Source: Mucilaginibacter geliditolerans
Lineage (GTDB): Bacteria > Bacteroidota > Bacteroidia > Sphingobacteriales > Sphingobacteriaceae
Assembly (NCBI RefSeq): GCF_014200495.1
Contig: NZ_JACHBY010000003.1
Coordinates: forward strand, 248,001 to 312,000
DNA: 64,000 nt
Direction: 5' to 3'
Positions 2,202-61,525 of this stretch are shown piece after piece. The notes under the pieces were generated by a model that worked only from the letters and a program-made list of their open reading frames with translations, ran no database searches and was not told the origin of the DNA. The stretch's first letter is position 1. The number at the start of each line of letters is the position of its first letter. The position numbers and the translations under genes were made by a program.

Positions 2202-3473
2202 TTAATCAATCCACTCAAACTTAGTATAAGGCACTAATACCTCAGGTATTTTTATGCCCCTGTCTGTTTGATTATTTTCCAGTAAAGTAGCAACAATACG
2301 CGGCAATGCCAATGCGCTGCCATTAAGCGTGTGGGCCAATTGGGTTTTACCTTCAGCATTGCGGAAACGCAGTTTTAAGCGGTTGGTCTGAAAAGTTTCA
2401 AAATTTGATACAGATGATACCTCCAGCCAACGTTGTTGTGCCGCGCTCCAGGTTTCCATATCATAGGTTAATGCTGATGCAAAGCCCATATCCCCACCAC
2501 ATAAACGCAGCACACGGTATGGCAGGCCTAAATTTTGTAATAAGCCCTGCACATGAGCGCTCATGCTTTCCAATACTCTGTATGAATCATCCGGGTGTAC
2601 AACTTGTACTATCTCCACCTTATCAAACTGGTGCAGACGGTTAAGGCCACGCACATGCGCGCCATATGAGCCTGCCTCGCGACGGAAACACGCGGTATAG
2701 CCACAGTTCTTTACAGGCAGCTCATCAGCCTTTAATATTACATCACGGTACAGGTTGGTGATAGGCACTTCGGCAGTTGGTATAAGGTATAATTTATCCT
2801 CGCCAACAAAATACATCTGGCCTTCTTTATCGGGCAGCTGTCCGGTTCCAAAGCCCGATGCTTCGTTAACCAATAATGGCAGCATCACCTCGGCATAGCC
2901 TGCTTTCTCAGCTTCGTCCAAAAAATAAGCGATCAGCGCCCTTTGCAGTTTGGCACCTTTACCTTTATATACCGGGAAACCTGCGCCGGTTATTTTTACA
3001 CCCAGCTCAAAATCTATCAAATTATATTTAGCAGCAAGTTCCCAGTGTGGCAACGCGCTTTCAGCCAGATGTGGTTTTTCGCCGTTCTCCAGCACTATTT
3101 CGTTTTCCTCGGGAGTTAATCCTTTAGGTACAGATGAATGTGGCAGGTTAGGCAACAGCACTATTTTTTGCTGTAACTCTTCTTCGGTTGCTGATAATAT
3201 ATCGCCCAGTTTTTTTATCTCTTCTTTCCAAACACCGGTATTAGCTTTTATGGCTTCCGCCTCGTCCTTTTTAGCGGAGCGCATTAGTTCGCCTATCTGT
3301 TTGGCAGCAGCATTTGCCTGCGCCGAAACAGTATCCATTTGGTTTTGAGTTGTACGGCGTTTTTCATCGAGTTGAATAATATCATCAACCAATTGGGGCT
3401 GTTTAAAATTTTTTACAGCCAAACGTTCTAAAACTTGTTCCCTGTTATCGCGGATATAACTAACTTGCAGCAT
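2202..3473 (-). CDS. serS: Seryl-tRNA synthetase
   Basis: Charges tRNA-Ser (and tRNA-Sec where present). The 423 residues are the normal bacterial length. The N-terminal arm (about residues 25-105) is a long helical hairpin rich in K/E/Q that contacts the long variable arm of tRNA-Ser. The catalytic core shows TAEVPITN, class II motif 2 (CFRREAGSYGAHVRG) and motif 3 (NGSALALPRIVATLLEN). The start ATG at 3473 is followed by the usual MLQVSYIRDNREQV. The upstream spacer shared with divergent rsmI contains an iterated-word palindrome. Confidence 0.97.
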   Translation of the reverse strand: MLQVSYIRDNREQVLERLAVKNFKQPQLVDDIIQLDEKRRTTQNQMDTVSAQANAAAKQIGELMRSAKKDEAEAIKANTGVWKEEIKKLGDILSATEEELQQKIVLLPNLPHSSVPKGLTPEENEIVLENGEKPHLAESALPHWELAAKYNLIDFELGVKITGAGFPVYKGKGAKLQRALIAYFLDEAEKAGYAEVMLPLLVNEASGFGTGQLPDKEGQMYFVGEDKLYLIPTAEVPITNLYRDVILKADELPVKNCGYTACFRREAGSYGAHVRGLNRLHQFDKVEIVQVVHPDDSYRVLESMSAHVQGLLQNLGLPYRVLRLCGGDMGFASALTYDMETWSAAQQRWLEVSSVSNFETFQTNRLKLRFRNAEGKTQLAHTLNGSALALPRIVATLLENNQTDRGIKIPEVLVPYTKFEWID

Positions 3474-3501
3474 TTAATTTATTTTTAGGCAAAGATATAA
3501 T

Positions 3502-3623
3502 CAGTTAGCGGTTTGCAGTAGCAGTTTGCAGTTTTTTTATAATCTATAATGGTTCGCACAAAATGCCGGCCGAAAAACGCAAGCTGAACAATGCCCACTG
3601 CAAACTAAAAACTGCAAACTGAA
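3502..3623. repeat. Iterated-word palindrome between serS and rsmI
   Basis: The left arm (3502-3537) repeats the word GTTTGCAGT twice; the right arm (3597-3622) carries its complement ACTGCAAACT twice and stops right at the rsmI ATG. The arms are imperfect and separated by about 60 bases. It occupies most of the divergent promoter space. The word does not recur in the other palindromes of the window. Confidence 0.75.
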
Positions 3624-4322
3624 ATGACTGGTAAACTCTACTTAGTACCCACCCCGATAGGCAATCTTGAGGATATTACCTTTAGAGCCATACGTGTTTT
3701 AAAGGAAGCCGACCTGATACTGGCCGAGGATACTCGTACATCTGCGCCATTACTCAAACATTTTGATATCCATCAAAAGGTATTCGCGCATCATCAGCAT
3801 AATGAGCACCAGTCATCAAACGAGATCATTAAGTTTTTAAAGGAGGGGAAAAATATAGCGCTAATATCAGACGCGGGGACGCCCGCCATATCCGATCCGG
3901 GATTTTATTTGGTGCGCGAAGCATTGAAACATGATCTGCAGGTTGAATGCCTGCCAGGTGCTACGGCTTTTGTGCCGGCTTTGGTTAACTCTGGTTTCCC
4001 TACCGACCGCTTTTGCTTTGAGGGATTTTTACCATTGAAAAAAGGCCGCCAAACACGCTATAAAATATTAAGCCAGGAAGAGCGTACCATTATACTGTAT
4101 GAATCGCCGCACAGGATTATGAAAACGCTTGAAGAAATGATCACTTATTTTGGTGCCGACAGGCAGTTATCCGTATCGCGCGAACTGACAAAAATGTTTG
4201 AGGAAACCGTACGCGGCACCGTTGAGGAGGTTAAAACTTATTTTGAAACACACCCCGTAAAAGGTGAGTTTGTAATTTGTGTGGCGGGCGCTGAAGGGAA
4301 GCCTTCAAAGGAAAGAGATTAA
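3624..4322 (+). CDS. rsmI: 16S rRNA (cytidine(1402)-2'-O)-methyltransferase
   Basis: SAM-dependent enzyme that 2'-O-methylates C1402 in the decoding centre of 16S rRNA. It is a tetrapyrrole-methylase-fold protein of 232 residues with the family landmarks: LYLVPTPIGNLEDITFRA at the N-terminus, LILAEDTRTS, ALISDAGTPAISDPG (SAM site) and CLPGATAFVPALVNSG. The length is slightly below the 270-290 of proteobacterial members because the short C-terminal helical domain is missing, which is common in Bacteroidota. It is divergent from serS, and a GTCAT-type palindrome follows the stop. Confidence 0.95.
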   Translation: MTGKLYLVPTPIGNLEDITFRAIRVLKEADLILAEDTRTSAPLLKHFDIHQKVFAHHQHNEHQSSNEIIKFLKEGKNIALISDAGTPAISDPGFYLVREALKHDLQVECLPGATAFVPALVNSGFPTDRFCFEGFLPLKKGRQTRYKILSQEERTIILYESPHRIMKTLEEMITYFGADRQLSVSRELTKMFEETVRGTVEEVKTYFETHPVKGEFVICVAGAEGKPSKERD

Positions 4323-4347
4323 TAATTAATAAGCTAAATAACCCAGG

Positions 4348-4432
4348 CGTCATTGCGAGCGATAGCGTGGCAATCCCCTACTTGCAAGTCCGCTCTGTAC
4401 AGTCGGGGATTGCTTCGTTCCTCGCAATGACG
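4348..4432. repeat. GTCAT...ATGAC palindromic repeat
   Basis: Outer arms CGTCATTGCGAG and CTCGCAATGACG enclose inner arms GGCAATCCCC and GGGGATTGC. Member of the TCATTGCGAG subfamily. It abuts the start of the DinB-like gene, so TTG 4435 just after it is an unlikely start. Confidence 0.9.
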
Positions 4433-4452
4433 TTTTGAAAATACATAACGAT

Positions 4453-4971
4453 ATGCATGACTATTTAACCAGCGTAAAAAAGAGGTTTGAACTTGAAAAA
4501 ATACTGGCGGAGAAAACCTTTGAGCAAATAAATGACGAAGCACTGTTTTGGCAATATAATGAGGAGAGCAACAGCATTGCCATAATTGTGCAGCACCTTG
4601 CGGGTAATATGCTTTCGCGGTGGACAGATTTTTTAACTACAGACGGAGAAAAACCCTGGCGCGAACGTGATGCGGAGTTTGAAAATAATATCATTACCCG
4701 GCAAGCGTTAATAGCCAGTTGGGACAGGGGTTGGGATTGTTTATTTAACTCACTTAACCTGGTACAGGTTGATGATTTAGATAAAGAAATATTCATCCGC
4801 AACGAAAGCCATACCGTTATTGATGCTATTAACAGGCAATTGGTACATGTAGCATACCATGTGGGGCAAATAGTATTTATTGGCAAAATGGTTTCCGGTT
4901 CAAACTGGACTGCATTAACCATTCCTAAAGGAAAATCAGCGGCTTTTAACGCCGAAAAATTTAACAAATGA
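4453..4971 (+). CDS. DinB-superfamily protein, DUF1572-like
   Basis: Predicted four-helix-bundle protein of the DinB/YfiT superfamily, many members of which bind a metal ion; the reaction is unknown. It shows IAIIVQHLAGNMLSRWTDF with an N-terminal metal-ligand histidine, an RQALIASWDRGW helix and a C-terminal QLVHVAYHVGQIVFIGK segment with two more histidines, giving the usual three-His pattern. I chose ATG 4453 over TTG 4435 because the latter overlaps the repeat edge. The stop overlaps the lnt start (ATGA at 4968), so the two genes are translationally coupled. Confidence 0.82.
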   Translation: MHDYLTSVKKRFELEKILAEKTFEQINDEALFWQYNEESNSIAIIVQHLAGNMLSRWTDFLTTDGEKPWRERDAEFENNIITRQALIASWDRGWDCLFNSLNLVQVDDLDKEIFIRNESHTVIDAINRQLVHVAYHVGQIVFIGKMVSGSNWTALTIPKGKSAAFNAEKFNK

Positions 4972-6587
4972 AGAAAAACATCCTGTTATCCATATTCTCC
5001 GGTTTATTGCTTTGGATAGCCTGGCCGCCTACCTCTTATACCACTTTCCTGCTGTTTGTTGGTTTTGTGCCGATGCTGATTATGATGGAGAATATCATAC
5101 AGTCGCATGTGGCTAAAAAAGGCAAAAAGATCTTCGGACTAACTTTTCTTGGCTTTTTTATATGGAATACGCTATGTATTTACTGGGTGTATAATTCATT
5201 AAAAATGATAGGGCCTATTACGGCTATCCCTATCAGCTTAATACCCTATTCGCTTGGGCCATTGCTGATGGCTACTGCCTGCTGGCTTTACTATAGGTTG
5301 CGTCGCATCACTAACCGGGGCTTGAGCCTGTTTGGTTTAGTTTGTTTTTGGGTAGGCTATGAATACCTGCACCAAACCTGGGACCTCAATTTTCCATGGA
5401 TGACATTAGGCAATGGTTTCGCCGTGAGCCACCAATGGATACAGTGGTATGAGTATACAGGCGTATACGGTGGTACCGTGTGGATCTGGATCATCAACAT
5501 CCTGCTGTTTTTAATATACACTGGCTTGCGCGAGGGCAAGAATAAAGCTTTAAGATTAAGCCTCATCGTGGCATTTGTGCTGGTACTTATTTTGCCGTTA
5601 AGCTATTCGTTGTACCGCTACCATACTTACCAGGAGCAGCCCAACCCATCAAACATTGTGATAGCTCAGCCTAATATTGATCCTTATGCTAAAGTATCCG
5701 ATATACCTACCAGTGAACAGCTCAGTATTTTAACCCATATTTCCGATTCTATAGGGCAGCCAAATACCGAGTTTTTCATCTGGCCTGAAACTGCTATAAG
5801 TGATCAGGTTGATGAAGACCGCATACACAGCAATAACTACTTTTTACAGGTACAACATTTCCTGAACAAATATAAAAACGGCAACGTGCTTACCGGTGCC
5901 GAAACCTTTAAACTGTATGATACCCGGGCTACAAAAACTGCCAGCCCAACAGATCAACCTAATCAATTCTATGATAATTTTAATACCGCGCTGAACATTG
6001 AAAACTCTGCCGAGGTACAGTTCTATCATAAATCAAAGCTGGTACCGGGCGCTGAGTCGATGCCTTTTGGCGATGCTTTATCATTCATGAAACCTGTGTT
6101 TGAGCATTTAGGTGGGGCAACGGGCAGCTATGCAGGTCAGTCGGAGCCGGGAGTATTTTATTCGCAGAGCGGCATTGGTGTTGATCCGGTTATCTGCTAT
6201 GAGTCTATCTGGGGGGAGTATATTGCCGAATCAGTACATAAAGGTGCACAGTTCATTGCCATAATTACCAATGATGGCTGGTGGGAAAACACATCGGGCA
6301 AAGATCAGCATCTTGATTATGCTAAGCTGCGGGCTATTGAAACGCGCAGATGGGTTTGCCGATCAGCTAATACGGGGATCTCTGCCTTTATTAACCAACG
6401 CGGCGATATCGTGCAGCATACCAAATGGTGGGTGAAAACTACTATAAAACAGGATATCAATCTCAATTCAGACCTTACGTTTTATGTGCTGTACGGCGAT
6501 TATATCCCAAGAGCGGGTTGTGTTTTGGCGGTGATAGGGATCATTCTAATATTGGGAACCGGGATTAAACGGATTAAAAAGATTTAA
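4968..6587 (+). CDS. lnt: Apolipoprotein N-acyltransferase
   Basis: Inner-membrane enzyme that adds the third acyl chain to the N-terminal cysteine of lipoproteins, consistent with the many lipoproteins nearby. The 539 residues start with about six membrane segments (residues 5-220), followed by a periplasmic nitrilase-type domain and a last membrane helix (about 515-535). The catalytic triad can be seen: Glu in FFIWPETAISD, Lys in YHKSKLVPGAESMP and Cys in PVICYESIWG. The DinB-like gene overlaps its start by 4 bases. Its last codons form the left arm of an inverted repeat whose right arm lies at the end of the convergent kinase gene. Confidence 0.95.
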   Translation: MKKNILLSIFSGLLLWIAWPPTSYTTFLLFVGFVPMLIMMENIIQSHVAKKGKKIFGLTFLGFFIWNTLCIYWVYNSLKMIGPITAIPISLIPYSLGPLLMATACWLYYRLRRITNRGLSLFGLVCFWVGYEYLHQTWDLNFPWMTLGNGFAVSHQWIQWYEYTGVYGGTVWIWIINILLFLIYTGLREGKNKALRLSLIVAFVLVLILPLSYSLYRYHTYQEQPNPSNIVIAQPNIDPYAKVSDIPTSEQLSILTHISDSIGQPNTEFFIWPETAISDQVDEDRIHSNNYFLQVQHFLNKYKNGNVLTGAETFKLYDTRATKTASPTDQPNQFYDNFNTALNIENSAEVQFYHKSKLVPGAESMPFGDALSFMKPVFEHLGGATGSYAGQSEPGVFYSQSGIGVDPVICYESIWGEYIAESVHKGAQFIAIITNDGWWENTSGKDQHLDYAKLRAIETRRWVCRSANTGISAFINQRGDIVQHTKWWVKTTIKQDINLNSDLTFYVLYGDYIPRAGCVLAVIGIILILGTGIKRIKKI

Positions 6588-6808
6588 GGATAAAATATTC
6601 ACATGTCATTGCGAGCGATAGCGCGGCAACCTCATCGCGTTAAATATGCATGCGACGAGGTTGCTTCGTCGTTCCTCCTCGCAATGACATGATTTTTATT
6701 TGCCTATGTAGAGATTGCTTCATTCCTCGCAATGACGCTTGGTGATATTCGCACCTCTACATCAGGAAAATCCTTCAAATCCTAAAAATCCTGGTTCCTA
6801 TCTGGTTC
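6555..6808. repeat. Iterated-word palindrome split by a GTCAT repeat
   Basis: The left arm (6555-6596) reiterates GGATT-like words at the end of lnt (GGAACCGGGATT, ACGGATT, AAGGAT). The right arm (6767-6808) holds the complement (ATCCTTCAAATCC, AAAAATCCTGGTTCC) at the end of the kinase gene. The space between holds a complete and a half GTCAT-type repeat, as if these had inserted into the loop. Confidence 0.6.
6603..6738. repeat. GTCAT...ATGAC repeat plus adjoining half copy
   Basis: A full copy lies at 6603-6690 (ATGTCATTGCGAGCG / CTCGCAATGACAT, with inner GCAACCTC / GAGGTTGC). A half copy at 6708-6738 (GTAGAGATTGCTTC to CTCGCAATGACG) has only the right arm. It sits between the convergent lnt and kinase genes. 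Confidence 0.9.
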
Positions 6809-7655
6809 AATTTCTCTCCAAAATAAACTGGAGCAGATCATGAATAGGTTGTTTGATGATCTTGCCGGTGCGTACGCCGGTCACTTTACAAAGTTCCTGC
6901 AGCTCATCGGCAAAAACATAGGCTATTGATCCTACAAAATTGCATTTGTATTTATTGTATTGCGGATACGATTTGATATTGGTATCAATAAACTCCAGCA
7001 GACCATCATGCAGTAGCTTTTGCGCATATTCCGTTTCCCGTATCTGACTTAGGAACCGGGAAAATGCTGCCAGGTATGAGTTTCCACCAGGTTTCTGGTA
7101 TACATTTTTTATTACATCCTCACGGGTTAAATGGTAGGCTGCTTCAAATTTCGCGTCGATATCCGCGGGCATTTTGCCGTACAGATAATCGGTTATCAGC
7201 GCTTTGCCAAACCAGGTTCCTGAGCCTTCATCGCCCAAAACAAAACCTAAGCCATGCTGGCCGGCATGTATATCCTCGCCGTCAAAAAAAGAAATATTGG
7301 AACCTGTACCCAGTACACAGCATAAGCCTTTCTCGTGCCCGCAGGTAGCGTATGCCGAACCCAGCAGATCGCTGTCCACACTCACATATGCTTTGGGGAA
7401 TAACTGGCTTATGGCATTTGAAACAATTTCGTGCCTATCCGGACTGGAGCAGCCTGCGCCAAAAAAATAGATCTCGGTAATATCAGCAGCAAAGGCTATC
7501 AGGTCGGCAGCCTGCTCCTGCAATATTTTAACGATATCTTTTTCTGATAAAAAGTAAGGGTTTAAGCCTGATGTCCTGAATTGTTGTGCTTCCTGTTGTG
7601 GTATAGCGAGCAGCCAATCTGTTTTTGACGATCCGCTATCAGCAACTAAGATCAT
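6807..7655 (-). CDS. N-acetylglucosamine kinase-like protein (BadF/BadG family)
   Basis: ASKHA-fold sugar kinase of 282 residues, probably phosphorylating N-acetylglucosamine or a related amino sugar salvaged from cell wall or chitin. It shows the phosphate-1 motif MILVADSGSSKTDWLL, the SVDSDLLGSAYATCG strand, the phosphate-2 segment CVLGTGSNISFFDG and GHGLGFVLGDEGSG-type loop, and an adenosine motif near FVGSIAYVFADEL. Its ATG overlaps the end of the upstream receiver gene by 17 bases, so the two are co-transcribed. Substrate is inferred from family only. Confidence 0.82.
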   Translation of the reverse strand: MILVADSGSSKTDWLLAIPQQEAQQFRTSGLNPYFLSEKDIVKILQEQAADLIAFAADITEIYFFGAGCSSPDRHEIVSNAISQLFPKAYVSVDSDLLGSAYATCGHEKGLCCVLGTGSNISFFDGEDIHAGQHGLGFVLGDEGSGTWFGKALITDYLYGKMPADIDAKFEAAYHLTREDVIKNVYQKPGGNSYLAAFSRFLSQIRETEYAQKLLHDGLLEFIDTNIKSYPQYNKYKCNFVGSIAYVFADELQELCKVTGVRTGKIIKQPIHDLLQFILERN

Positions 7656-8037
7656 GTGAAAATATTTCTTCCAGGCCTTTGTGAGTAACAGGTTTATGAA
7701 TAAACTGGCATACGTATTTATTCACCAATGATCTTTTAATATCAGTAGGATCAAGCGATGAGGAAAGCATATATATTTTTATAGCGTCTTTATTTTCAAT
7801 GGATATTTTTTCATATTCATCCAAAAATTCAAAACCGCTCATTTCAGGCATCCGGATATCCAAAAATATAAAATCGGGATGAACCGTACCATTGCGCAAG
7901 GCTTCTATAGCTTGCTCGGGCGATTGCAGGATGATAATGTTTTCGGCAAAATTACCACTTTCTAAAATTTTACTGGTAACAAAATTATCAATGTAATTAT
8001 CATCGATCAGTAAACAGGTTTTGTAACGGGCACTCAT
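7639..8037 (-). CDS. Single-domain response regulator
   Basis: Stand-alone CheY-like receiver of about 132 residues with no output domain. It shows the acidic pair in CLLIDDNYID, the phosphoacceptor in FIFLDIRMPEMSGFEFL, the conserved Ser/Thr strand YMLSSSLDPTD and the lysine in FIHKPVT. ATG 8037 is preferred over the upstream TTG at 8043. It heads a two-gene unit with the sugar kinase (17-base overlap). Its cognate kinase is not in the window. Confidence 0.88.
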   Translation of the reverse strand: MSARYKTCLLIDDNYIDNFVTSKILESGNFAENIIILQSPEQAIEALRNGTVHPDFIFLDIRMPEMSGFEFLDEYEKISIENKDAIKIYMLSSSLDPTDIKRSLVNKYVCQFIHKPVTHKGLEEIFSHDLSC

Positions 8038-8252
8038 AATCAAAATTAACTTTTAAATTGTTTAAAAGAGCATAATTGACAGATTATTAATCAACATTAT
8101 GTATTACATTTCTGCAATATTCGTAACTTTTTTGTTAGATAACAATCACTTATAAATTTTAGCAGCTATACACTTTGTTTGTTGCTAAATCATTAGAGAA
8201 CTAATATTGCTGACAGTTTAATATTCAATATAAATTTTTAATAAATTGCCGG

Positions 8253-10052
8253 ATGAAAACATTTCACTTAAATGCTTTTTTTTCTTTAATAATACTTTTA
8301 ATGTCTACCCATATCAGTACCGCGGCAACCATGTCACAAATTTCATATACCGTAACTTTTCCCGAAGCACAGGCTCATTATGCTGATGTTGAAATGAATA
8401 TCAGCCATTTAAAACAAAATACATTGGTGCTTAAAATGCCCGTTTGGACACCCGGCTCGTATCTTATACGTGAGTATGCCAAAAATGTTGAGTCTTTTAG
8501 CGTAAGCACAGGAGGCAATTCATTACCCTTTATTAAAACCCGCAAAAACTGGTGGAGCATTAACACGCAAGGTTTAAATGATATTACCATAAAATACAGG
8601 GTTTATTGTAATGAGATATCAGTACGCACCAGTACCGTTGATGCGTCGCACGCGTTTATCTCAACTTCAGGTTTTTTCATGTACCCTGAAGGGATGCTGC
8701 ATCATCCCTCTGCCATCCATATTATACCATACGATAGCTGGACGAAGGTTTCGACCAGTTTGGATATGGTGAATAATGATCCCTTTACTGTAACTGCCCC
8801 TAATTATGACATTTTGTTCGATTCGCCTATTGAGGTGGGTAACCAGGATATATTTGGCTTTAAAGCAGCGGGTGTAGATTACGAGATAGCCATGTTTGGC
8901 AACGGCAAATACGATAAAGAGCGTCTTAAAAAAGATATGGCCAAAATTATTGAGCAGGAAACTGCCGTTTATGGCGAAAACCCCAACAAACATTATGTTT
9001 TTATAGTGCACCACTATTTAAAAGGCGGTGGCGGCCTGGAGCATTTAAGCTCAACCGTAATGGGTGTCGCGCGCGATGCTTATACTACTGAAACCGGCTA
9101 TCAAAACTTTTTAAGCCTCTTTGCACATGAGCATTTTCACCTGTGGAACGTAAAACGCCTGCGCCCTATAGCCTTAGGTCCGTTTGATTATGACAATGAG
9201 AATTACACTACCGACCTGTGGATAGCCGAAGGATTTACTGCTTATTATGAGGATATTATACTAAGGCATGCTGCTTTAATCCCGGTTGATAATTACTTAA
9301 ATGTATTGAGCAATGACATTAATTCGGTTGAAAACCAGCCGGGCAGAAAATTCCAGTCTGTTACTGATGCCAGCTATGATGCATGGATAAAGGCTTACCG
9401 TCCTAATGAAAACTCAGCCAATACCACCATATCTTATTACAGCAAAGGATCAATAATAGCCATGTTGCTTGATCTGGAGATCATTAATGATAGTAATGCA
9501 AAATACTCGCTGGATGATGTAATGAAGCACATGTATGATGAGTATTATAAAGGAAAGCACCGCGGTTATACTGATATTGAGTTTAAACAGGGGCTCGAGA
9601 AATTTGCAGGTAAAAAACTGGATGATTTTTACAAAAAATATATCTACGGCGTTGCTGATATTGATTATAACAAATACCTGGGTTATGCCGGTTACAAAAT
9701 AACCGATGCGCTGGCAGCAGGTAACGATCCATCATTAGGCGCAGTAACCAGCAATGCCAATAATAAAATTACCGTTACCAGCGTATTACGTGGCGGCGCG
9801 GCATGGATAGCCGGTATTAATACCGATGATCAGCTGGTTGCTTTAAATGGCAATCCAATAGCCAGCATGCAGGATCTTTTAACCGGTAAAAAGCCCGGCG
9901 ATAAAATAACCGTAACCGTTAACCGCGATGGGCAGCCATTAACATTACAGGTAACGCTACTGAAAAATGCACAGGTAAAGTACAAAATAGACCCACTGGA
10001 TAACCCCACCCCACAGCAACTTACAATAAGAAATAAATGGCTTAAACTTTAA
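8253..10052 (+). CDS. M61-family aminopeptidase with PDZ domain
   Basis: Exported zinc peptidase of the M61 (glycyl aminopeptidase) family, 599 residues. It has an N-terminal signal (1-24, ending STAA), a beta-rich N-terminal domain containing PVWTPGSYLIREYAKNV, the catalytic domain with the gluzincin motif HEHFH in LFAHEHFHLWNVKRLRP and the third zinc ligand in DLWIAEGFTAYYED. A C-terminal PDZ domain (about 495-575) contains VLRGGAAWIAGINTDDQLVALNG. Likely periplasmic. It stands alone; the next gene is a tiny membrane protein. Confidence 0.93.
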   Translation: MKTFHLNAFFSLIILLMSTHISTAATMSQISYTVTFPEAQAHYADVEMNISHLKQNTLVLKMPVWTPGSYLIREYAKNVESFSVSTGGNSLPFIKTRKNWWSINTQGLNDITIKYRVYCNEISVRTSTVDASHAFISTSGFFMYPEGMLHHPSAIHIIPYDSWTKVSTSLDMVNNDPFTVTAPNYDILFDSPIEVGNQDIFGFKAAGVDYEIAMFGNGKYDKERLKKDMAKIIEQETAVYGENPNKHYVFIVHHYLKGGGGLEHLSSTVMGVARDAYTTETGYQNFLSLFAHEHFHLWNVKRLRPIALGPFDYDNENYTTDLWIAEGFTAYYEDIILRHAALIPVDNYLNVLSNDINSVENQPGRKFQSVTDASYDAWIKAYRPNENSANTTISYYSKGSIIAMLLDLEIINDSNAKYSLDDVMKHMYDEYYKGKHRGYTDIEFKQGLEKFAGKKLDDFYKKYIYGVADIDYNKYLGYAGYKITDALAAGNDPSLGAVTSNANNKITVTSVLRGGAAWIAGINTDDQLVALNGNPIASMQDLLTGKKPGDKITVTVNRDGQPLTLQVTLLKNAQVKYKIDPLDNPTPQQLTIRNKWLKL

Positions 10053-44327: not shown

Positions 44328-44526
44328 TGTCATTCTGAGCGGTAGCGAAAAAACCGCACGTGCGTTAACCGGTTACTTGTAGAATAGATACTTCGTTCCT
44401 CAGCATGACAATTCCTTTTTATAAACTTCACTGTCATTCTGAGCGGTAGCGAAGAACCTACCCGCGTTTAATTTCCATAGGATAGTCTGACGCTTGCAAA
44501 TAGATGCTTCGTTCCTCAGCATGACA
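44328..44526. repeat. Two GTCAT repeats, CTGAG subfamily
   Basis: Copies at 44328-44409 and 44432-44526, both running TGTCATTCTGAGCGGTAGCG to GTTCCTCAGCATGACA. The centres differ. Confidence 0.9.
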
Positions 44527-44581
44527 ATGCGTTATTGAATTATGAATGATGAAGTTTTAAAAAAGCTTATAAACAAGTAAA

Positions 44582-44602
44582 GCCCCTGTTGGGCAGGGGC
44601 CT
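44582..44602 (-). terminator. Terminator-like hairpin after the tRNA pair
   Basis: GCCCCTG (44582-44588) pairs with CAGGGGC (44594-44600) over a 5-base loop. On the minus strand it is followed by TTTACTTGTTT. It lies 39 bases past the 3' end of the second tRNA. Confidence 0.7.
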
Positions 44603-44638
44603 TTACTAACCAATTATAAACCTAAATTATGAGAAGAG

Positions 44639-44753
44639 CTGTAGGAGAAGGGGTCGAACCTCCACGGAGTGGTTATTTTCATTGCTGAAAGTTTCCCAAT
44701 TTCTCCGCCACCGCGACAAGGAGGTGTGTCTGCCAAAATTTCACCATCCTACA
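44639..44753 (-). tRNA. tRNA-like gene, GUC anticodon, 44-base variable region
   Basis: Read on the minus strand: acceptor TGTAGGA/TCCTACA (7 pairs) with G73; U8-G9; D stem GTG/CAC with GG in the loop; anticodon arm CCTCC-TTGTCGC-GGTGG (one U-U mismatch), anticodon GUC, U33, C38; T arm GGAGG-TTCGACC-CCTTC. The variable region of 44 bases has an outer stem CGGAG/CTCCG, an inner TGG/CCA and a tip TTTC/GAAA. The body is leucine-type (class II) while the anticodon and G73 fit aspartate. No CCA is encoded. It is 115 bases long. Confidence 0.72.
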
Positions 44754-44782
44754 TTTTTGTTAATCTCAAGCCTTTGAGATTG

Positions 44783-44894
44783 CTGTTGGGGAAGGATTCG
44801 AACCTCCACATAGTGGTTAGCCCGCTTCGGGTTTTCCATGATCTACGCCACCGGGACAAGGAGGTGTGTCTGCCAAAAATTTCACCACCCAACA
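44783..44894 (-). tRNA. tRNA-like gene, GUC anticodon, 40-base variable region
   Basis: First of the tandem pair in transcription order. Acceptor TGTTGGG/CCCAACA with G73; D arm as in its neighbour; anticodon loop TTGTCCC (GUC, C38); T arm GGAGG-TTCGAAT-CCTTC. The 40-base variable region has an outer stem CGTAG/CTATG, an inner TGG/CCA and a tip CCCG/CGGG. Compared with the neighbour, acceptor and variable stems change on both sides, keeping pairing, while the stretch from D arm to anticodon is identical apart from one extra T. 112 bases; spacer 29 bases. Confidence 0.72.
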
Positions 44895-44940: not shown

Positions 44941-44972
44941 CAAATCTAATAGACCTATCGTTTCCTTGCAAA
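44941..44972 (-). promoter_or_regulatory. Promoter of the tRNA pair
   Basis: On the minus strand: TTTG (44972-44969), 20 bases, TAGATTTG (44948-44941). This is a full match to the Bacteroidota consensus, 46 bases before the first mature tRNA end. Confidence 0.72.
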
Positions 44973-45045: not shown

Positions 45046-45522
45046 ATGTCTCATAGAAAAGCCCCAAATTTAGAAATTGATAATCTTGACATACAGATCT
45101 TATCAATTTTAATGAAAAATGCAACCACTCCGTACACGGAAATTGCGAAAGAGTTGATCGTTTCGGGCGGAACCATACACGTGAGGATGAAAAAGTTGGA
45201 GGAGATGGGTGTAATAAAAGGTGCCACACTCGAGGTTGATCCTCAAAAATTAGGCTATGATATTACCGCTTTCCTGGGTATTTACCTGGAAAAGGGTTCA
45301 CAATATAATGAAGCCGTCAAACAGTTGAAAAATGTTAAGGAGATTGTTGAGTTGCATTACACAACCGGCAGCTGGAGCATTTTTGCTAAAATTGTATGCC
45401 ACGATACCAATCACCTGCGCGAAATACTGAATGAGAATATACAAGGTATAACAGGTGTGCAACGTACGGAAACCTTTATATCACTGGAAGAAAGCATTAA
45501 AAGGCAGATAACGCTGGAATAA
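45046..45522 (+). CDS. Lrp/AsnC-family transcriptional regulator
   Basis: 158 residues. The N-terminal winged helix-turn-helix (about 12-60) reads LDIQILSILMKNATTPYTEI and ELIVSGGTIHVRMKKLEEMG. The C-terminal RAM/ligand domain (about 75-150) shows AFLGIYLEKGSQYNEAV, VELHYTTGSWSIFAKI and GVQRTETFISLEES. Lrp-type proteins form octamers that sense amino acids. It is transcribed divergently from the unusual tRNA pair, with about 150 bases between, and ends in a strong terminator. Ligand not known. Confidence 0.93.
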   Translation: MSHRKAPNLEIDNLDIQILSILMKNATTPYTEIAKELIVSGGTIHVRMKKLEEMGVIKGATLEVDPQKLGYDITAFLGIYLEKGSQYNEAVKQLKNVKEIVELHYTTGSWSIFAKIVCHDTNHLREILNENIQGITGVQRTETFISLEESIKRQITLE

Positions 45523-59998: not shown

Positions 59999-60049
59999 AG
60001 TTTCGCAAATAGTTTTTCAAAGGCTTATCGGCAATAAATCAAATAATTG

Positions 60050-60057
60050 TATTTTTG
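60050..60057 (+). promoter_or_regulatory. -7 box upstream of asnS
   Basis: TATTTTTG, exact TAnnTTTG, 20 bases before the asnS ATG. It lies inside the TTG-initiated upstream extension, which argues for ATG 60077. Confidence 0.5.
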
Positions 60058-60076
60058 CCGCTCAAAAGATATTTAC

Positions 60077-61525
60077 ATGAGCCAGCGGACAAAGATCAAA
60101 GCATTATTAGAGAGTGAACAAACCAATATCGAGATAACTGTAAAAGGATGGGTACGGGCGTTCCGTCAAAATCGTTTTATAGCTTTAAATGATGGCTCAA
60201 CTAATAATAACTTACAAATCGTTGTCGATTTTGAAAATACCGACCCTGACCTGTTAAAAAGGATCACTTTTGGCGCTGCTATAAGCGTTACCGGCGAACT
60301 GATCCCATCTTTAGGGCAGGGCCAGAAGGTTGAAGTTGTTGCAAAAGATATTGAAATTTTAGGCGATTGTAACCCTGATGAATTCCCTTTACAACCTAAA
60401 CGCCAAACCTTAGAGTTTTTGCGTGAGAACGCTCACCTTCGTTTCCGCACCAATACATTCGGCGCTATATTCCGTGTGCGCAATACGCTGTCATTTGCGG
60501 TGCACCAATTTTTCCAGGAGCGTGGGTTTGTTTATTTACACACACCTATCATTACTGCATCTGATGCGGAGGGAGCGGGCGAAACTTTCCATGTAACCAA
60601 TTTCGATCTGGATAACCCACCAAAAACAGAAACCGGCGAAATTGACTTCAAACAGGATTTCTTCGGCAGGCCTACCAACCTTACCGTTTCCGGTCAGCTG
60701 GAAGGTGAGCTTGGTGCTATGGCTTTGAGCGATATTTATACCTTCGGCCCAACTTTCCGTGCTGAAAACTCAAACACAACCCGCCACTTAGCGGAGTTTT
60801 GGATGATAGAGCCCGAAGTTGCCTTTAACGACCTGGTTGATAACATGGACCTGGCTGAAGACATGCTGAAATACGTGATTAAATATGCCCTTGACAAAAA
60901 CAAGGATGATATTGAGTTTTTAACGCAGCGCTTAACCGAGGAAGAAAAACAAAAGCCACAAAACGAGCGCTCAGAAATGACGCTGCTTGATAAGCTGCAA
61001 TTTTGTTTAGATAATAATTTTGAACGCCTTACCTATACTGAGGCTATCGACATATTAAAAGAATCGACCCCGAATAAAAAGAAAAAATTCGTGTACCCGG
61101 TTGAAGGCTGGGGAACCGACCTGCAATCAGAACATGAGCGTTATCTGGTAGAGAAGCACTTTAAAAAACCGGTAATATTAACCGATTACCCAAAAGCTAT
61201 TAAAGCGTTTTACATGCGCCAGAATGAGCCGGATGCACAGGGCCGCGAAACTGTTCGCGCTATGGACATTTTGTTCCCTGGTATTGGCGAAATTGTAGGT
61301 GGCTCGCAGCGTGAGGAACGTTTAGACAAATTGGAGCAGCGTATGGATGAAATGGGCATACCAAAAGAAGAGCTTTGGTGGTACCTGGATACAAGGCGCT
61401 TCGGCTCTTGTCCGCATTCGGGGTTTGGCTTGGGCTTTGAGCGTTTGGTGCTGTTTGTTACCGGCATGGGCAATATCAGGGATGTAATACCTTTCCCAAG
61501 ATATCCGAAGAACGCGGAATTTTAA
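60077..61525 (+). CDS. asnS: Asparaginyl-tRNA synthetase
   Basis: Class IIb synthetase charging tRNA-Asn, 482 residues from ATG 60077. OB-fold anticodon domain first ([20 protein letters not shown]), then the catalytic core: [35 protein letters not shown], motif 2 [20 protein letters not shown], and motif 3 [18 protein letters not shown] helical insertion (about 270-330, [14 protein letters not shown]) is usual in this group. With asnS present, the aspS at the window start is probably discriminating. Confidence 0.96.

Follow-up and report, generated by a model that had tools for sequence, protein, structure and literature searches.

A tandem pair of tRNA-like genes in Mucilaginibacter geliditolerans, together with the RNA family to which it belongs, is best read as a set of carrier tRNAs dedicated to asparagine synthesis and not to decoding, a reading to which we give a probability of about two in three. 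We observe directly the determinants, the gene neighbourhood, the covariation and the genomic distribution on which it draws. If the reading is right, it provides a source of asparagine in the many Bacteroidia that have asparaginyl-tRNA synthetase (AsnRS) and GlnRS without AsnA or an E. coli-type AsnB, a reason for the retention of GatCAB in those Bacteroidia, and a case of a tRNA that has gone from translation to the role of carrier in amino-acid biosynthesis. A literature search, conducted mostly at record level, returned no description of this RNA family.

Structure and conservation of the RNA family

Both genes lie on the minus strand of the window, by which we mean the whole 64,000-nucleotide stretch of DNA analysed. 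They form tandem type II cloverleafs with GUC loops, assigned by hand: copy A (44783..44894) is 112 nt long, with a variable region of 40 nt and the acceptor TGTTGGG/CCCAACA, and copy B (44639..44753) is 115 nt long, with a variable region of 44 nt and the acceptor TGTAGGA/TCCTACA. Both share an acceptor of 7 bp and a T stem of 5 bp closed by a TTCGA loop, together with U8, A14, GG in the D loop and G73. The anticodon-like loops, their positions counted from the start of each copy, read TTGTCCC in copy A (44853..44859, minus strand) and TTGTCGC in copy B (44713..44719, minus strand), giving G34, U35, C36 and C38 in both. A preliminary description of this DNA had reported such a pair, with GUC, C38, G73 and 40- and 44-nt variable arms, and this anatomy is confirmed; the leucine-type D arm that it mentioned does resemble, by eye, that of the host tRNA-Leu(taa). 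A normal tRNA-Asp(GUC) was looked for elsewhere in the host genome and is present at another place.

Such an RNA is easily overlooked, because ARAGORN, run on the whole window, found no tRNA and missed both copies, while the Rfam tRNA model RF00005 listed copy B alone, at 29.9 bits for a cut-off of 29. A covariance model that we built from 30 copies scores the two at 113.9 and 114.5 bits, both having been part of its training alignment. The unconstrained minimum-energy folds of the copies fall short of a full cloverleaf and are lower in energy than the cloverleaf by 3.1 and 3.5 kcal/mol, a prediction that would count against the carrier reading and calls for caution.

That ARAGORN misses both copies might be taken to mean decayed tRNA genes or assembly noise, but the pair or a single copy was recovered by blastn in 35 of 36 genomes of the same genus (the exception being a 71% complete genome), with a promoter and with covarying stems, and we consider decay so unlikely as to be negligible. 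An exact 20-mer search returned at least 120 stretches; 119 of the 120 listed come from records named for Mucilaginibacter, Pedobacter and related genera, or from Sphingobacteriales/Bacteroidetes MAGs, and since the query contains the anticodon, GUC is favoured among loci from that search. One 20-mer match in Petralouisia (L123), around which no cloverleaf was parsed and ARAGORN found no tRNA, was taken as a chance occurrence.

The covariance model was run on 301 genomes of the family Sphingobacteriaceae and 395 genomes of the class. Matches of ordinary tRNA length (80-84 nt) score up to about 66 bits, and long matches and strong scores were accordingly read as members; the model being trained on Sphingobacteriaceae, absence outside the family may hide divergent members. 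The 58 loci fetched outside the family, which by our count come from 54 genomes of 18 Bacteroidia families, yielded 65 full-length members, one of which (L308) has its loop deleted. In the alignment of 67 other-Bacteroidia matches (66 distinct, with one chance match and one truncated row included), 97.9% of pairing cells hold a pair versus 86.9% after shuffling, and two-sided changes are seen in 19 of the 27 pairs, in 211 cells versus 60.3 in shuffles. This agrees with the selection on structure proposed in the preliminary description. Covariation in that alignment extends to the variable arm, in its outer and its middle stem, and the geometry of the acceptor and T arms, 7/5 in both window copies as assigned by hand, holds across alignments. 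In the Sphingobacteriaceae copies examined, the usual variable arm has an outer stem followed by a bulge of some 4 nt, then 3 bp of stem, an internal loop and a freely varying inner hairpin. Copies with long variable arms from Pedobacter and from several distant families (L066, L073, L155, L264, L265, L271 and others) have the string GGGTTGACCAC in common in that arm, which suggests a contact with a protein or another RNA. Five tandem copies of the RNA occur in the loci of Solitalea longa (L157) and Pedobacter sp. SYSU D00535 (L095).

The exact anticodon arm, including the U29.U41 mismatch noticed earlier, recurs in 259 of 260 acceptor-anchored copies from fetched loci. The mismatch is thus real, and is a trait of the Sphingobacteriaceae lineage, the stems of other families being different and covarying. 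The 5' strand of this arm, CACCTCCTT (minus strand, window positions 44858-44866 and 44718-44726), is near invariant in Sphingobacteriaceae and matches the 16S anti-Shine-Dalgarno string. An anti-Shine-Dalgarno role was rejected as the function of the family, CACCTCCTT being present in 1 of 58 other-family loci, where the stems differ; a lineage-specific role in Sphingobacteriaceae may exist. Targets of the form AAGGAGGTG show no excess in the host genome (32 sites versus 35 for the reversed control). Bacterial Y RNA (YrlA, a partner of Ro60) is a noncoding RNA with a tRNA-like part. The window RNA, unlike Y RNA, has full acceptor and anticodon arms, and TROVE (PF05731) has no match in the host genome, so that this identity was also discarded.

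Two sets of identity elements and the drift of decoding features

Across 274 distinct full-length copies (164 from Sphingobacteriaceae, 64 from other Bacteroidia and 46 viral), U1-A72, G2-C71 and G73 are present in every one, whereas pairs 3-7 differ between copies and in most cases remain complementary. The three sets differ in how they were gathered: the viral set is the cleanest, having been picked by the anticodon arm alone; the Sphingobacteriaceae copies were located in part through their acceptor; and of the other-Bacteroidia rows only those with a final AG were kept, which removed a truncated row and a chance match. In the other-Bacteroidia copies, the loop keeps U35 (65/65), C36 (65/65), G34 (61/65) and C38 (64/66). 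The account of aspartate identity in PMC9976931 gives five strong AspRS determinants, G73, G34, U35, C36 and C38, and describes the G1-C72 pair of bacterial tRNA-Asp as strictly kept and important for identity; U1-A72 is the pair that GatCAB reads, as described in PMC4206432. Among the 32 distinct host tRNAs (ARAGORN, 30 fetched tRNA loci), U1-A72 occurs in tRNA-Asn and tRNA-Gln only, and tRNA-Asp has G1-C72. The kept positions unite two identities, that of AspRS and that of GatCAB, and the RNA therefore reads as a chimera freed from decoding. AspRS specificity is a weak point of the carrier reading, the G1-C72 pair of tRNA-Asp being an identity matter.

Features needed on the ribosome follow another course. 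U33 is found in 50 of 65 other-Bacteroidia copies and lost in 15, and position 37 is a U in 59 and a purine in 5 of 65. The Sphingobacteriaceae loop is T-[T/C]-GTC-[T/C/G]-C over 236 copies, with U33 lost in 10 of them, and position 37 across the two sets (65 and 236 copies) is U, C or G, with A once only. All 32 distinct host tRNAs, by comparison, keep U33 and a purine at 37. The loss of decoding features is an argument at the level of the family, where positions 33 and 37 drift; in the window, copy A carries C37 and copy B carries U33 together with G37. Set against tRNA-Asp, the family has GUC, C38 and G73, and lacks both G1-C72 and, at family level, the combination of U33 with a purine at 37; set against a GatCAB substrate, it has U1-A72 as its first pair, with GatB encoded in the same genome in all carriers examined.

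These positions bear on whether the RNA is simply a translating tRNA, charged with Asp, Asn or Ser and reading GAC/GAU, perhaps under special conditions. The cloverleaf with GUC fits such a role, as does the presence of the RNA beside ordinary tRNAs in viral tRNA arrays. We nevertheless find it quite unlikely in view of the drift at positions 33 and 37, which none of the 32 host tRNAs shares, and of the normal tRNA-Asp already available; Asn inserted at Asp codons would moreover do harm. The recoding raised in the preliminary description is for the same reason unsupported, and the non-translational role that it named as a possibility was, in our judgement, rightly named. It was also right about the Asp-type determinants. 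It entertained charging with Asp, with Ser or not at all; the kept G34, U35, C36, C38 and G73 fit Asp best, although G73 and the long arm would allow Ser.

Glu-type anticodons, UUC or CUC, were seen in 4 of 65 other-Bacteroidia copies (L283, L286, L258 and L303). AsnA is present, and a GlnRS match absent, in one genome with such a copy (G498). It is conceivable that a glutamine variant of the RNA exists.

An AsnC-like neighbour and the distribution of GatB and AsnB

Divergent from the pair lies a gene for an AsnC-type Lrp/AsnC regulator (45046..45522, plus strand) with 46% identity to E. coli AsnC; its best solved match is AsnC (2cg4, 4.8e-37) and its best NCBIfam model is AsnC, at 176.6 bits, under the cut-off of 227. 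Among the 20-mer matches listed, 99 of 119 named loci have a divergent AsnC-like gene some 143-207 nt away from the first copy, as do 93 of the 102 named loci with at least 700 nt of room. The arrangement extends to other families, where 32 of 58 loci have the gene divergent at a distance of 131-289 nt; the stretches examined from f3 and f63 loci hold no AsnC-like gene, and f15 is mixed. Of 15 larger loci, 10 again contain the AsnC-like gene, the other reading frames being listed without annotation. The E. coli genes asnC and asnA are a divergent pair, and AsnC activates asnA, an activation abolished by asparagine according to PMC4482635. The two systems are alike in that AsnC is divergent from an asparagine-synthesis gene and differ in that here an RNA array, with no protein gene, occupies the place of asnA. 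In genomes with AsnA or AsnB, no AsnC-like gene was found beside those enzymes (L311-L321), which argues against a simple swap in place.

Upstream of the pair is a Bacteroidetes-type promoter, TTTG-N20-TAGATTTG (44941..44972, minus strand), recognised by the Bacteroidetes consensus. Among the 20-mer matches listed, 106 of the 110 upstream regions from named loci contain TTG-N18..22-TAnnTTTG, versus 2% in shuffles, and the motif mostly ends 46-50 nt before the first copy. A scan of the minus strand for sigma-70-type promoters found none. After copy B come a conserved trailer, ATAATTTAGGTTTATAATTGGTTAG (44606..44630, minus strand), whose core is found with at most 2 mismatches in 67 of the 110 named loci among the listed 20-mer matches, and a terminator-like hairpin (44579..44603, minus strand; 1 found versus 0.3 expected from shuffles). 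Past the 3' end of the array, at 44330-44530, two imperfect repeat copies can be seen by eye, starting with TGTCATTCTGAGCGGTAGCGAA and ending with CAGCATGACA.

Enzyme content was profiled in 80 genomes that we chose by model score, from both groups, out of 681 scanned: 42 carriers of the RNA and 38 non-carriers. GatB is above cut-off in all 42 carriers, the host included, versus 16 of 38 non-carriers. An E. coli-type AsnB, defined by a profile range of about 1-385 and a length of about 560 aa (the PRK09431 scan was applied to the G062 protein alone, and the 438-aa frame of G044 was counted), is found in 0 of 42 carriers versus 16 of 38 non-carriers. AsnA is found in 3 of 42 carriers (G615, G646 and G498) versus 5 of 38 non-carriers. 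Within the host's own family, the same 80 genomes give GatB in 17 of 17 with the RNA versus 2 of 15 without, and AsnB in 0 of 17 versus 11 of 15. The cross-tables, here and below, were compiled by hand. The genomes are related, so that P values overstate independence. The contrast recurs within genus g44 (G100 and G114 versus G080 and G134) and within family f2, where G430, with AsnA and no GatB, stands against G037, G398 and G516.

The 56 genomes with both GlnRS and AsnRS, one of which (G066) has a divergent AsnRS match only, should not need GatCAB for translation; GatB is present in 32 of 32 with the RNA versus 2 of 24 without. GlnRS, AsnRS and GatB occur with no RNA detected in G071 and G538. 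Over the 301 family genomes, a search with one E. coli-type AsnB query (PRK09431, 923 bits), in which at most 4 candidates were scored per genome, gave AsnB only in 86, the RNA only in 193, both in 1 and neither in 21; the single genome with both, G257, has an AsnB with 63% identity to the query.

Two further explanations have to be weighed against this distribution. As a regulatory decoy or sensor, the RNA would bind AspRS, GatCAB or both, charged or not, and tune aspartate/asparagine metabolism without acting as a carrier in synthesis: it would have use for the same determinants, the same association with the AsnC-like gene and GatB, and the long structured variable arms. We hold this to be unlikely, as it leaves unexplained the absence of E. 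coli-type AsnB where the RNA is present, and the intact acceptor end with G73 suggests charging. Non-decoding tRNAs with donor roles outside the ribosome are known, and the RNA could be an aspartyl or asparaginyl donor for some other non-ribosomal reaction, for instance in lipid, peptide or cell-wall modification, its elaborate variable arm binding a transferase. To this we give little credence: the exclusion of AsnB and the AsnC link, the latter weakly through the recurrence of the AsnC-like gene in the larger loci, point to asparagine itself.

The carrier reading has its own weak points in the AsnA of 3 carriers, in long AsnB-like proteins and in the non-cloverleaf minimum-energy folds; G257, G071 and G538, the Glu-type anticodons and the loci in which AsnA or AsnB stands without an AsnC-like gene also count against it. 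Some TIGR01536 match is present in 37 of 42 carriers, mostly in long proteins, which may have asparagine synthetase activity; the host protein passes TIGR01536, fails PRK09431 and lies, by eye, among glycosyltransferases. In favour of the reading, 5 of 42 carriers (G063, G077, G084, G037 and G606) have neither a TIGR01536 match at 1e-40 nor AsnA. The carrier model leaves unexplained the asparagine source of 20 of 38 non-carriers that have neither AsnA nor an E. coli-type AsnB. Overall, the earlier interpretation is partly supported; it had missed the meaning of U1-A72, the AsnC-like neighbour and the GatB/AsnB distribution.

A carrier model, related systems and viral copies

For the steps of charging, amidation, release and regulation we infer the following scheme. 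AspRS would recognise G34-U35-C36, C38 and G73 and load aspartate on the RNA; GatCAB would recognise U1-A72 and amidate the RNA-bound aspartate to asparagine. With its loop free of decoding demands, the Asn-RNA would be kept off the ribosome, and no Asn would enter at Asp codons. Asparagine would be released spontaneously or by some hydrolase and then used by AsnRS, encoded in the window at 60047..61525 (plus strand; PRK03932, 641.9 bits, cut-off 414). The AsnC-like regulator would raise expression of the array under asparagine shortage, in the way that AsnC acts on asnA in E. coli.

The closest parallel is the two-step Asn-tRNA(Asn) pathway, in which a non-discriminating AspRS likewise places aspartate on an RNA for amidation by GatCAB through U1-A72, and which PMC4206432 suggests for bacteria, among them some Bacteroidetes, that lack AsnA and AsnB. 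In that pathway the aspartate sits on the decoding tRNA-Asn; in the present case the carrier would be a separate non-decoding GUC RNA with a long variable arm, for which, unlike in the two-step pathway, a discriminating AspRS could suffice. Allo-tRNAs, Ser isoacceptors with a 12-bp acceptor domain of 8/4 or 9/3, are similar in their long variable arm and non-serine anticodon, GUC being listed among the common ones in PMC7609411, where their genes are reported from Clostridia, Proteobacteria and Acidobacteria. The present RNA differs from them in its 7/5 arrangement, its near constant GUC loop and its occurrence in Bacteroidia.

Viruses carry the RNA too. A search for the anticodon-arm pattern retrieved 58 IMG/VR contigs (L376-L433), 57 of which have a long model match over the pattern; several contigs with the tRNA-like gene exceed 100 kb, and the gene often sits inside tRNA arrays. 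Ordinary tRNA genes, up to 25, occur in 18 of 20 viral loci scanned. The viral acceptor stems are varied, yet U1-A72, G2-C71 and G73 are constant. A blastn search of the window pair against plasmid and GenBank phage collections gave no match. We lean slightly towards a wider formulation, that an RNA acts as cofactor for the making of a free amino acid: a non-decoding chimera of AspRS and GatCAB identities that would replace AsnA/AsnB, be governed by AsnC and be borne by phages within their tRNA arrays. In one viral locus (L383, positions 3080-8300; also L386, L421 and L426), several more tRNA-like elements adjoin ordinary tRNAs; their AGTCAGG acceptor and their T arm hardly vary, and their middles are very different.
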